A DNA stretch of 64,000 bases. Source: Fimbriimonadaceae bacterium. Lineage in GTDB: Bacteria; Armatimonadota; Fimbriimonadia; Fimbriimonadales; Fimbriimonadaceae. Under the pieces are notes generated by a model. That model was not told where the DNA came from and made no database searches. It worked only from the letters and a program-made list of their open reading frames with translations. The stretch is from the NCBI GenBank assembly GCA_019638775.1, contig JAHBTD010000002.1:372001-436000 (forward strand), written 5' to 3'. A program made the position numbers and the translations under genes. This document shows positions 55,690 to 59,895 of the stretch, one piece after another. Position 1 is the stretch's first letter, and every line of letters begins with the position of its first letter.

Positions 55690-56040
55690 TCAAGATCGCT
55701 TTTTGGGCCTGGTCATTGCCACGACCAATAGCGTGACGAACAGCACCACGAACAGCGTGCCCAATCCCAGCAGAGCGATCTTCGTCCCTCGTGCCGACAT
55801 CGTGCCGAGCGCGTGCTCAGGCGACTGCCAAGTTGTGAAAGCAGCCCAGCCTAGCAGCCCGAAGAGGCCAATCGTTGCCCAACCGCGCATGCCTTTGCTC
55901 TTGGACTGCCACGCGTCTGGGATGGCGATGAGCCCGAAGAAACCCAACGCCGAAAAAGGAACGTTCGCAAACGCAACTCCCGCCGCCAAGAACGCCAAAA
56001 ACTCGAGTTTGAGCAGCAGAATAGCGAAGGAGCGGAGCAC
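55690..56040 (-). CDS. Small multi-pass membrane protein of unknown function
   Basis: 116 residues, probably four transmembrane helices (FAILLLKLEFLAFLAAGVAFA, FSALGFFGLIAIPDAWQ, ATIGLFGLLGWAAFTTW, KIALLGLGTLFVVLFVTLLVVAM) with a basic C-terminus. No family is recognised. It is convergent with clpB, its stop lying 16 bases after the clpB stop. Coding character is supported by the regular helix pattern. Confidence 0.55.
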   Translation of the reverse strand: MLRSFAILLLKLEFLAFLAAGVAFANVPFSALGFFGLIAIPDAWQSKSKGMRGWATIGLFGLLGWAAFTTWQSPEHALGTMSARGTKIALLGLGTLFVVLFVTLLVVAMTRPKKRS

Positions 56041-56079
56041 TCTCGAATTATGAAACGTCGGTTAGTGAAGATGTGACCG

Positions 56080-56207
56080 GTAAGGATCGTAAGGAGTAAG
56101 GATTGTAAAGATTAGGTCTCGAAAACCAAAATTCCGAGACTAGAGTTTCGTTGCTCGGGCGGCCAATTGGCAATTATCCTTACGATCCTTACTCCTTACA
56201 ACCCTTA
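56080..56207. repeat. Inverted pair of GTAAGGA heptamer tracts
   Basis: The first tract (56080-56110) reads GTAAGGATC, GTAAGGA, GTAAGGA, TTGTAA. The second (56172-56207) is its approximate reverse complement (TCCTTAC, GATCCTTAC, TCCTTAC, AACCCTTAC). The arms could fold into a long hairpin upstream of yjbQ. Confidence 0.75.
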
Positions 56208-56238
56208 CACTGCAATTCCCCCGAGTATCCTCAACTCC

Positions 56239-56649
56239 GTGAAAGCCCACACGGAATACCTCTGGTTTCAGACCCAAAAGCAGGAAGAGTTCGTCTGCAT
56301 CACCGACGAGATCGCCAAGATCGTGATGGAGTCTGGCGTGCAGGAGGGGATGGTCCTTGTCTCCGCCATGCACATCACCGCTGCTGTCTACGTGAACGAC
56401 CTTGAATATGGCCTGATTGAGGACATCAAGGACTGGCTAAACGGGTTGTGCCCCAAAGCAAACTATCGGCACCACCAGACTGGAGAAGATAACGGAGAAG
56501 CCCATCTCAAGAACCTTATCATGCACCACCAAGTGATCCTGCCCATCACCAACGGCGGACTGGACCTTGGTCCCTGGCAGCAGGTGTTCTACGCCGAGTT
56601 TGACGGGCAAAGGCGAAAGCGAGTCGTTGTCAAAGTGATGGGAGAATAA
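56239..56649 (+). CDS. yjbQ: YjbQ family protein (UPF0047)
   Basis: 136 residues from a GTG at 56239, matching the usual length of about 138. The family blocks are clear: [35 protein letters not shown], and the metal-site region [15 protein letters not shown] with [14 protein letters not shown] near the end. YjbQ proteins form trimers, and some have thiamine-phosphate synthase side activity; the physiological role is open. The upstream in-frame extension arises from the repeat and is excluded. The neighbouring genes give no functional clue. Confidence 0.92.
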
Positions 56650-56840
56650 TTGATGAAGGCACGGTTGCAGGCCAGTACCGGCAGGTATGCCTGATGCTCA
56701 CCTGCGAGTGAGATGCAAACCGGGAGAGATGATGGTGGAGGCTGTGCGATAGTTAGGAAGGCCCATTGAAGAGCAAAAGAAGTCGATGTCCAATTCGATC
56801 TTGAGGAAGGAATTCTAGCTCGCGAATTTTCTCTCTTTGC

Positions 56841-57165
56841 AGGGAGGACTTCTCATCATTGTCGCGGTCGCTTGCTTGGTTTGGCTCCTGATGCAACCCA
56901 AAGAGAAGGCTCGGGACATGGCTCTTCGAGAGATCGTCTGGGGACCGCTGTTGAAGGCCTGCGTTTTCAGGATGAGAACTACTTCTCCCAGAGGAGTACT
57001 CAAGGCGAAGGCTACAACATCGAGGGAGCCTATGCGCAGCAGGGGATGCAGGACGGCTCTAGCATCGCTGGTGCAACGTAGCCCAATGGCATCGATATGC
57101 TGGGTGCTGCTGAGATTATGACCATGGACGGAATGAGCAGCATGACGATTGCCGTTTATCGGTAG
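56841..57165 (+). pseudogene. Possible decayed ORF with hydrophobic N-terminus
   Basis: In the 625-base gap between yjbQ and the TIR gene. A hydrophobic start (LLIIVAVACLVWLLM, followed by a KEKARDMALREIVWG segment) is in one frame. Then a Gln/Gly-rich frame (DENYFSQRSTQGEGYNIEGAYAQ...) runs to a TAG at 57079 and continues in the same frame after it (PNGIDMLGAAEIMTMDG) to 57165. This pattern fits a frameshifted and stop-interrupted gene, but no family is recognised, so noise cannot be excluded. Nothing else is seen in the gap. Confidence 0.35.
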
Positions 57166-57274
57166 GCTTGATGAATGGGCTTTGGTAGCGCAGGAAGAGC
57201 AAGTGAAAATACTTTTCATTTGAGTTGAATGCCAGCAGGTTTACTTTTCCGATTTTTTTCGACAGAATTGGAAA

Positions 57275-58180
57275 ATGAAGTTATTTCTTAGCTGGTCAGG
57301 CGATAGAAGTAAGGCCCTGGCGGAAGCATTTGACAAGTGGATTCAAAGCGTCGTACAAGCAGTCACTCCTTTTTTCTCTCCAGACGACATTGAAAAGGGA
57401 AGCTTTTGGTTTCAAGAAATTAATGAAAATCTCAAGGAAGCCAAGACGGGCATTATGTTCATAACGCAAGAGAATCGCGATCGACCTTGGATGCTCTTTG
57501 AAGCGGGAGCACTTGCTACAAAAATAGGAAAGCCACGTTTAATTCCTCTACTTTTTGATATGCAGCCATCTGAATTGACAGGTCCTTTAGCTAACCTAAA
57601 TGTTGCAGTATTCAATAAAGATGAAATCAAGAAAGTTGTAATGACAATAAATGGGCAAGTTGAAGAACAAAGGCTGGATCCAGCTGTTCTTGACAGTGTA
57701 TTTGAAAAGTGGTGGCCTGACTTGGATGACGCTGTAGCTACCATCTTGTCGCAGGAAGATCATAAGATAAGTCCCTCCAGACCTACAGAGGACATATTGG
57801 AAGAATTGCTTGCACTAGGTAGATTAACGCGCGAGTATCTATACTCGATAGAGCAACAATGGGAATTATTGGCAGAAGACCGGGAAGCACCCTTTGTTCA
57901 TAAACTCCACTATCGTTATCCAAAGCACATTGTTCATCAAGCGCTCGGTAGTATTCCAATGAAGTACAGAGAGCCAGTAATTTTATTGGATTTCGAGGCA
58001 GTTACAATGAAAGCTGCTTCCGAATTGATACAAGCGTCTCCAGCAACAGTGCGTTCGAGAGCGAGCATAGGGCGGCAAATGCTTAAAGAGTCTTTACTGG
58101 AACTGAAGATGAATGTTAATAGAGAAAGGTTAGCCGTATCTGCAAATGAAGACTCCCAGACCTCTGACGAGGAAGAGTGA
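57275..58180 (+). CDS. TIR-domain protein with C-terminal sigma-70 region-4-like HTH
   Basis: 301 residues. The N-terminus (1-125) is a TIR-fold domain of the bacterial type: MKLFLSWSGDRSKALAEAF, FFSPDDIEKGSFWFQEINE, KTGIMFITQENRDRPWMLF and FEAGALA, which supplies the catalytic-position E76. Such domains usually cleave NAD+ in antiphage or signalling systems. After a linker and a helical region, residues about 219-277 read QALGSIPMKYREPVILLDF, then TMKAASELIQASPATVRSR and IGRQMLKESLLEL. This is the pattern of sigma-70 region 4 with its helix-turn-helix (LP.k.R.v..L...), and the fusion is unusual. The gene is clearly AT-richer than its neighbours and stands alone, suggesting horizontal transfer. 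DNA binding and NADase activity are predictions. Confidence 0.8.
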   Translation: MKLFLSWSGDRSKALAEAFDKWIQSVVQAVTPFFSPDDIEKGSFWFQEINENLKEAKTGIMFITQENRDRPWMLFEAGALATKIGKPRLIPLLFDMQPSELTGPLANLNVAVFNKDEIKKVVMTINGQVEEQRLDPAVLDSVFEKWWPDLDDAVATILSQEDHKISPSRPTEDILEELLALGRLTREYLYSIEQQWELLAEDREAPFVHKLHYRYPKHIVHQALGSIPMKYREPVILLDFEAVTMKAASELIQASPATVRSRASIGRQMLKESLLELKMNVNRERLAVSANEDSQTSDEEE

Positions 58181-58374
58181 GGCGTACTATATGACAGCGT
58201 TTATGGTGCAATCTAAGCTTGCCCGTATTATCCACTGAAGTCAGTGTTAAGTTGATGTTGAATGATGTATGACATGCGTTATGAAACAAAAGAGAACAAT
58301 CAGATAGTAGAGCCGCAAAAGTGATACACCCAAAGATGAGACTTATTCCAAGCCGTTGGTGCTTGTGTACCGAT

Positions 58375-59895
58375 TCACCCACGGAGTTCTTTCGGCAACA
58401 ACTCTCTCGGGAAGTTCTGATAGCAAACCGGCCTCAGCCAGCGGTCAATCGCTCTTCCCCCGACCGATGTGGACTGCCCATCGGTCGTTGCCGGGAACGG
58501 TCCGCCATGCACCATTGCTTGGCATACCTCAACCCCAGTTGGGAACTGGTTTAAGATCACGCGACCCGCTATTCGTGTGAGTACATTCAGAATTGGCGCA
58601 GCGTGGGCAAGGTCAGTGGGAGTCGCATGGATCGTGCCCGTAAGCTGTCCTTCCATGACCGCAATGGCTTGGGCTGCTTCTTCGATGGAGTCACAAATCA
58701 CGAGCAGCGTTTCCGGTCCAAACACCTCATCGCGCACCTCGCTTTCGTGCATGAACGTAGCTGCCGAAACCTCGAACACAGACGTTTCCCCCGGCTTGTC
58801 CGCCGATACAATCGGCGTCACTCCTTTTAAGCCGGAGATCCGCCGAACCATCCTCAAATAGTGCTCGCCGATCCCTTCTGTCAACATCGTTCCACAAGGT
58901 GTCTCGCTCATCAGTTGGGCAAATCTGGACTTAAACGCTTCAAGCCCCTCCATGCCAACGATGAACGCCACTCCAGGATTCGTGCAGAACTGCCCAACTC
59001 CAAGTGTTACGCTGGCATGAAGTCCCGTCGCGAAACCCTCGGGGTCGGTTGCGAGCTTGTCGGGCATTACCACCACGGGGTTGATGCTGCTCATCTCGGC
59101 ATAAACCGGGATCGGGGTTGGGCGTGATTGGGCGAGCTTCTGGATAGCGAGTCCACCTGACCGCGATCCTGTAAACCCAACGCCTTTGATAGATTCGTGC
59201 TGCACCAACACCTGGCCGATCTCGTACCTCTCGTCAAAGAGCATCGAAAACACACCCTCGGGCATGCCGGTTTCCTGGGCCGCAGCAACAATCGCGTTCG
59301 CGACGAGTTCCGAAGTACCAGGATGTGCGGGGTGAGCCTTGACAACGACTGGGCACCCAGCTGCCAAAGCGGATGCCGAATCTCCTCCGGCGACCGCAAA
59401 CGCGAGAGGAAAGTTCGATGCGCCAAAGACGGCGACAGGACCGATCGGTTGCTTCATAGATCGGACGTCGGGCTTGGGGAGAGGCTGACGGTCGGGGTCT
59501 GCGTGGTCAATGCGCACGTCTTGGTAGCTTCCGCCTTCGAGGATCGCGGCGAAGAATCGCAATTGCCCACAGGTCCGCCCAATCTCACCCATGATGCGGC
59601 CTTCTGGCAAGGCTGTTTCATGCGTTGCTCGCTGGATGATGGCCTCCTTTCCGGCCTCGATCTGCGTCGCAATTGCACGGAGAAACTCCGCTCTCTTCAA
59701 CCTGCCTGCCGCTGCAAAAGTAGGGAAGGCTTTGCCTGCAAGAGTCGCCGCGTCATCGACCTCAGTTTGCAGGGCAGTGTGGAACTCTCCAGATAGGCTC
59801 TCCCCAGTAAGGCGGCTCTTGACCGTGAAGCGCTGGCCCCCGGCTGACCCGCGGCTGATTCCGATGAATGAAAGTCCTTTTAGCATGCTCTTCAT
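58375..59895 (-). CDS. Aldehyde dehydrogenase, probable 2-oxoglutarate semialdehyde dehydrogenase
   Basis: 506 residues, the NAD(P)-dependent ALDH fold. The cofactor region has VAVFGASNFPLAFAVAGGDSASALAAGCPVVVK. The catalytic Cys is in VGQFCTNPG and the general-base Glu in YAEMSSINPV. The short GFTGSRSGG loop matches the 2-oxoglutarate-semialdehyde dehydrogenase group rather than betaine- or succinate-semialdehyde types. It is last in a four-gene minus-strand cluster with a hydroxyproline epimerase, a D-amino-acid oxidoreductase and a DapA-type deaminase. In that pathway it would convert 2,5-dioxopentanoate to 2-oxoglutarate. The ATG at 59886 is an alternative start. Confidence 0.88.
   Translation of the reverse strand: MKSMLKGLSFIGISRGSAGGQRFTVKSRLTGESLSGEFHTALQTEVDDAATLAGKAFPTFAAAGRLKRAEFLRAIATQIEAGKEAIIQRATHETALPEGRIMGEIGRTCGQLRFFAAILEGGSYQDVRIDHADPDRQPLPKPDVRSMKQPIGPVAVFGASNFPLAFAVAGGDSASALAAGCPVVVKAHPAHPGTSELVANAIVAAAQETGMPEGVFSMLFDERYEIGQVLVQHESIKGVGFTGSRSGGLAIQKLAQSRPTPIPVYAEMSSINPVVVMPDKLATDPEGFATGLHASVTLGVGQFCTNPGVAFIVGMEGLEAFKSRFAQLMSETPCGTMLTEGIGEHYLRMVRRISGLKGVTPIVSADKPGETSVFEVSAATFMHESEVRDEVFGPETLLVICDSIEEAAQAIAVMEGQLTGTIHATPTDLAHAAPILNVLTRIAGRVILNQFPTGVEVCQAMVHGGPFPATTDGQSTSVGGRAIDRWLRPVCYQNFPRELLPKELRG

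Follow-up and report, generated by a model that had tools for sequence, protein, structure and literature searches.

Why should a bacterial TIR protein end in a piece of a sigma factor? A gene in the window (the whole stretch of DNA analysed here, 64,000 nucleotides) raises this question. A first reading, made from the sequence alone, saw in its product, P0001, a TIR domain with E76 in the catalytic position and, at about residues 219-277, a sigma region 4, and proposed that the protein is a self-contained switch. The gene is a single uninterrupted ORF with an ATG start, and the features of its product are collected in Table 1.

Table 1. Features of P0001 and of its gene, in window coordinates.
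Feature	Position	Strand	Evidence
TIR-sigma4 fusion protein P0001, 301 aa	57275..58180	+	ORF and profile matches
TIR domain, residues 4-115	57284..57619	+	Pfam TIR_2 E 4.7e-8; Foldseek
WMLFE (W72-E76), WxxxE catalytic motif	57488..57502	+	alignment of 62 relatives
FEKWWPDL family signature, residues 143-150, C-terminal to the TIR domain	57701..57724	+	family alignments
Linker helix, residues 171-201, with the LEEILxLxR family motif	57785..57877	+	alignments, model
ECF-type sigma-70 region 4 module, residues 219-276	57929..58102	+	profiles, AlphaFold, Foldseek, phmmer
Recognition helix and lead-in, residues 256-274	58040..58096	+	alignment to host ECF sigma factors
Long terminal helix and acidic tail, residues 277-301, low confidence	58103..58177	+	AlphaFold models

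A TIR domain fused to an ECF-type sigma region 4

The claim for the C-terminus, which the sequence-only reading had staked on a sigma4-type match, was borne out by profile and structure searches. The Pfam model Sigma70_r4_2 matched residues 219-274 with 23.6 bits (E 3.9e-5), narrowly missing its curated cut-off of 25.7, and in a genome-wide search P0001 scored 27.1 bits, above the cut-off. More than 20 NCBIfam sigma models matched the same stretch, the best being SigM (E 1.4e-8), and a phmmer search of the PDB with P0001 returned almost exclusively ECF sigma factors. The TIR half and the sigma4 half were modelled separately with AlphaFold. In the model of residues 181-301, pLDDT was 96-98 across the sigma4 domain and the Foldseek matches were nearly all sigma factors: region 4 of SigR matched the module with a TMt of 0.87 (rmsd 1.4 Å, 63 columns), and region 4 of sigma-E on its -35 DNA with a TMt of 0.76. 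In the full-length model the sigma4 part was modelled without an alignment, at a pLDDT of 41-80, and the arrangement of the domains cannot be read off it. From the Pfam and NCBIfam matches, the PDB searches and the AlphaFold superposition, P0001 is therefore confirmed as a genuine fusion of a TIR domain with an ECF-type sigma region 4. Neither Pfam nor NCBIfam gave a match to sigma region 2 in P0001 and, because that region is absent, the protein is not expected to work as a sigma factor.

The gene looks acquired. As first described, it is AT-rich, with a GC content of 0.42 and 0.44 across its two halves versus 0.55 for the window; GC3 is 0.38 and 0.40 in the two halves and 0.84 and 0.72 in the two upstream genes. 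The two halves are alike in their low GC and GC3, a likeness that speaks against a chimeric assembly joint. The contig measures 1.16 Mb, in an assembly with a completeness of 99.9% and a contamination of 4%. P0001 gives the only TIR_2 match in this genome, and the neighbours of its gene are ordinary metabolic or housekeeping genes (UPF0047, ClpB and an aldehyde-dehydrogenase-type gene). The description of the gene as solitary and next to decayed sequence also held: no intact gene was found between the end of the UPF0047 gene (56649) and 57275, the interrupted ORFs upstream gave no Pfam match to any family, no operon partner was seen among the neighbouring ORFs, and no same-strand small TM gene was found beside it among these neighbours. 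No direct repeats that would mark the borders of a mobile element were detected in 56000-59000. The stretch 56080-56208, which surrounds the UPF0047 start, contains an inverted repeat of 33 nt, 88% paired, with 63 nt between its arms and composed of GTAAGGAT-like units.

These features of the gene bear on one alternative, in which the host itself, by way of an anti-sigma factor or a stress response, and not a phage, controls the TIR domain via the sigma4 module. This genome contains 33 region-4 matches, hence many sigma/anti-sigma pairs, and the closest of its own sequences to the module is one ECF sigma factor (L151, E 6e-10), to which the front half of the module (VHQAL..P..YREP), its better kept half, is near. 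However, the gene is AT-rich and apparently acquired, and relatives of P0001 from unrelated phyla swap in unrelated modules, and we consider host control very unlikely.

A second TIR-ECF-sigma4 fusion was found neither in 291 genomes of the phylum nor in the scan of the genome collection, viral contigs, plasmids or phages, so that in the collections searched the ECF-type fusion occurs in one genome only. The initial statement that known TIR effectors lack a sigma-like unit thus stands for this exact fusion as searched; it did not take into account that the TIR family itself is already listed, as TIR-TM in PADLOC.

The TIR family and its exchangeable C-termini

The match of TIR_2 to P0001 exceeds the Pfam cut-off, and the nearest Foldseek neighbours of the TIR model are SPARTA TIR-APAZ and plant TIR domains and receptors. 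Across 62 aligned relatives E76 is invariant, as are W7, S8, G42, N67 and G78, and W72 is conserved in at least 90% of them; E76 is the predicted NAD-cleaving glutamate, in agreement with the catalytic position first assigned to it. The family-conserved part of P0001 ends near residue 195. The PADLOC TIR-TM model PDLC03016 matches P0001 over residues 1-195 (1-201 of the 293 positions of the model, E 1.9e-59), and it matches the product of the TIR gene of phage P2-AC1 (L096) over residues 1-295, almost its full length (E 2.7e-118). This phage gene adjoins genes that match PADLOC 2TM-TIR and 1TM-TIR. As reported by Rousset and colleagues, AC1 lysogeny shields E. coli C from lambda and LF82_P8, and the cloned three-gene AC1 locus gives the same protection as lysogeny and is also active against P2 (PMC9122126). 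To this extent the family is already known: it has its entry in PADLOC, and one member's locus has been put to the test.

Family TIR genes are found on prophages and plasmids. In two lambdoid prophages (L095 and L098) the TIR gene occupies, on the opposite strand, the interval from Q to the holin gene, which is a typical site for extra prophage genes. A megablast search for the mEp390 gene found no copies in E. coli. In three loci (L008, L075 and L127) the family TIR gene adjoins a 2TM-macro ThsA-type gene, that of L075 matching PADLOC ThsA with E 3e-119, and L008 and L075 have a small second TIR-like protein adjacent as well; the three are macro-Thoeris-like loci. Because some members adjoin such a gene, the family TIR of these three loci can probably play the part of ThsB, the sensor that makes the nucleotide signal; TIR sensors are known to produce signals (PMC11204291). 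The ThsB model itself matches P0001 with an E of 0.018 only. One member, L058, has a transposase fragment upstream and a second TIR-type defence protein, PDC-S35, downstream. From these settings (the AC1 locus, the ThsA-type and PDC-S35 neighbours, the prophages and the plasmids) we therefore conclude that the TIR family of P0001 is a mobile defence TIR, sometimes partnered and often alone. A survey of homologues, as the first reading had advised, found defence genes beside some of them, but not the same fusion.

We compared the C-termini of 60 non-redundant family proteins in which this end is complete, P0001 counted in; L065 was left out of the sixty, its contig being masked downstream. The TIR domain is common to all 60, and a FEKWWPDLE-like signature and the LEEILxLxR linker helix are present in most of them, with divergence beyond. 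The relatives retain the region equivalent to residues 1-195 of P0001 and exchange the C-terminal remainder. Most of the 60 C-termini contain no recognisable known domain, and among the recognisable ones parts of host hubs are the majority. Two proteins end in an alpha-CTD of RNA polymerase: L004 (PF03118, E 1.1e-8; best PDB match, E 2.9e-23) and L058 (E 1.5e-18). Another two carry region 4 of a primary sigma factor, namely L065, whose region 4 matches RpoD (E 4.4e-6), and the similar L014, which taken by itself gives only a weak Pfam match (E 0.02).

A third kind of ending is that of SSB, whose tail is the docking site of many replication and repair proteins. Six of the 60 (L003, L007, L011, L012, L013 and L097) have SSB-type tails of the DDDIPF, DDDMPF or DDLPF kinds, and a more distant family member on an Enterococcus plasmid (L100) ends in DDDLPF. 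As a background we took the ORFs of the retrieved loci, setting aside the SSB genes that had been retrieved on purpose and one SSB-like phage ORF. About 1 in 660 background ORFs has an SSB-type ending versus 6 in 60 relatives (Fisher P 2e-6); the enrichment gives a P of 0.002 if four tails that belong to one shared middle domain are counted once. Where the SSB of the host was retrieved, its tail and that of the family protein are of one kind: L013 ends in DLPF and the SSB of its host in DDDLPF, the leucine being common to both, while L003, L011 and L012 end in DDDIPF and the SSBs of their hosts in ADDIPF or DDDIPF.

Other arrangements were seen as well. One family member (L063:1375-2055) carries a C-terminal CxxC...CxxC zinc-ribbon-like module in place of the helical tail. 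In a viral contig, L079, a separate ORF of 281 aa adjoining the family TIR gene ends in VDFDEIPF, which is SSB-tail-like, and an ORF of another viral contig (L121:4001-4205) has a leucine-rich-repeat-like sequence with an alpha-CTD-like module at its end.

The range of C-termini has a bearing on whether P0001 arose by accident, from a TIR gene joined to an ECF fragment, and has persisted through drift with no sensing role. Such an origin would agree with a fusion that was seen once and lies next to decayed upstream sequence. We regard it as most improbable, however: the frame is intact, the fold is confident, and the same TIR family has separately gained a primary-sigma region 4 and an alpha-CTD.

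What the sigma4 module may sense

The modules were compared at the residues that contact DNA. The alpha-CTD of L004 shares a stretch of 14 residues, ENIYYIGDLIQRTE, without any change with the alpha of the host that carries it, and has asparagine at R265, G296, K298 and S299, which are DNA-reading positions of alpha-CTD; L058 retains most of the alpha-CTD contacts. L065 and L014 retain none of the five residues R584, E585, R586, R588 and Q589 of the sigma-70 recognition helix. To the eye, the main DNA-reading residues are clearly gone in L004, L065 and L014 with the fold retained, and the copy in P0001 is partly degraded there. Its HTH half shows Y245M, E247A, L263A and R265I at residues that are near-constant in 12 host ECF sigma factors, and H/F264S in the recognition helix; it keeps T258-V259-R260-S261-R262 (TVRSR), the start of that helix, and R267. 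In a position-sampling test the loss of contact residues gave P values of 0.11 for L004, 0.23 for L065 and 0.27 for L014 and, because none of them is significant, this loss is an impression from a small set and not proof.

These residues bear on the idea, already put forward in the sequence-only reading, that the module is a DNA-binding unit. The TIR protein would then be parked on its own promoter, repressing itself, or on -35-like sites, and on infection the loss of contact with the DNA would free or activate the enzyme. The fold is indeed the -35-binding fold and matches sigma-E region 4 solved on DNA, P0001 retains TVRSR and R267, and mobile defence genes often repress themselves through an HTH. 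Against this stand the four near-constant residues replaced in P0001, the loss of the main DNA-reading residues in three relatives, and the SSB-tail members, which are without any such module. In addition, weak scans of the + strand upstream of the gene found no promoter-like or operator-like repeat; the promoter scan at the gene gave a single weak match, on the minus strand, scoring under the shuffled mean. DNA binding and self-repression have thus come out weakened, and we rate them as unlikely, if still a serious candidate. Given the loss of DNA-reading residues with the fold kept in L004, L065 and L014, and its partial form in P0001, a bait for hub-binding phage proteins seems, by sequence comparison, more likely than DNA binding, though unproven.

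A different alternative has the module dock on the host RNA polymerase, sigma4 on the beta-flap and alpha-CTD on activators, the TIR domain sensing a polymerase that has been seized or stalled. Sigma4 and alpha-CTD are both parts of the polymerase surface, and the front half of the P0001 module is the better kept. However, a sigma4 that lacks sigma2 should have only weak affinity for the core, and docking on polymerase is not expected of an SSB tail. Although host transcription shutoff is described as a known immune trigger in a review (PMC12409349), we find this explanation distinctly unlikely.

The explanation that we prefer, and to which we give somewhat less than an even chance, is that P0001 is a one-gene immune switch whose sigma region 4 serves as bait for phage or mobile-element proteins that grip sigma. 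It is the simplest account because one TIR enzyme bears copies of the hub modules that phages seize: an immune enzyme and a copy of what pathogens are known to target are joined in P0001, with its sigma4, and in the relatives with alpha-CTD, primary-sigma or SSB-tail endings. In phage T4, AsiA attaches to region 4 of sigma-70 and reshapes it, while Alt and ModA act on alpha by ADP-ribosylation of Arg265, a DNA-reading position (PMC2988021). The targets described there are sigma-70 and alpha-CTD, not ECF sigma factors, and to suppose that a bait in P0001 is aimed at some phage binder of ECF-type region 4 is to extrapolate from sigma-70. Counting against a bait, alpha-CTD modules also travel outside TIR proteins and immunity, as in the L121 ORF. 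The same holds for the contacts kept in L058, the TVRSR kept in P0001, the contact loss that fell short of significance, the single genome with an ECF-type fusion and the many relatives whose C-termini show no module that can be recognised.

The enzymatic activity, bait function, trigger and assembly that we infer for P0001 would fit together as follows. The TIR domain would be a killing or signalling enzyme, which cleaves NAD+ or synthesises an NAD-derived messenger, and the linker would hold it inactive. The C-terminal sigma region 4 would mimic the surface of host ECF sigma factors to which anti-sigma and sigma-hijacking proteins bind. A phage or mobile-element protein gripping sigma region 4 would then also grip the copy in P0001, whereupon TIR domains would assemble and NAD+ would be consumed before the phage finishes. 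Of the mechanisms first suggested, the sensing of a phage sigma binder fits a family in which one TIR has been fitted with alpha-CTD, with sigma-70 region 4 and with SSB tails, and a TIR switch that is complete in itself and has a sigma-like sensor is favoured by the domain evidence, the absence of partner genes and the relative in an antiphage locus.

More tentatively, the whole TIR family may be a rack of decoys, in which a conserved enzyme and linker carry swapped host modules and the hijack of a hub would lead to cell suicide. The other pieces of transcription machinery in the relatives suggest that bacteria bait cell-suicide proteins with copies of phage targets.

Comparison with known systems

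Little is known of the way in which bacterial TIR proteins encoded by single genes recognise phages. Should the C-terminal modules be baits, sequence would allow the trigger to be predicted, as binders of sigma region 4, of alpha-CTD or of SSB tails, and the decoy reading, if proved, would amount to more than a variant of a known TIR family. Neither a sigma4 fusion nor recurring C-termini from transcription or replication hubs were found in the literature searched, which was mostly open-access and is weak evidence in this respect. Where a 2025 review of effector-triggered immunity discusses decoys or RNA polymerase, those parts name no such polymerase decoy (PMC12409349).

With the PADLOC TIR-TM system P0001 shares its TIR domain, which falls in the PDLC03016 family, and the AC1 locus of this family is experimentally antiphage. 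The AC1 TIR, however, has a helical C-terminus and acts beside 1TM and 2TM genes, whereas the match of P0001 stops at residue 195, sigma4 follows, and adjacent 1TM-TIR and 2TM-TIR genes are absent. The likeness to Thoeris with a TM-macro ThsA lies in the three family members that adjoin a 2TM-macro ThsA-type gene; in P0001 the sensor part is replaced by sigma4, and no ThsA was seen among the neighbouring ORFs. In sequence and fold, residues 219-276 are the region 4 of an ECF sigma factor, but P0001 is without region 2, the part for core binding and -10 recognition. Finally, plant TIR-NLR receptors can contain an integrated decoy, in which a TIR cell-death protein is joined to a copy of something that the pathogen targets. 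The likeness is in logic only: P0001 has neither NBD nor LRR, and we claim common ancestry for the TIR fold only. If the bait explanation is true, P0001 would be a bacterial counterpart to these integrated decoys of plants.
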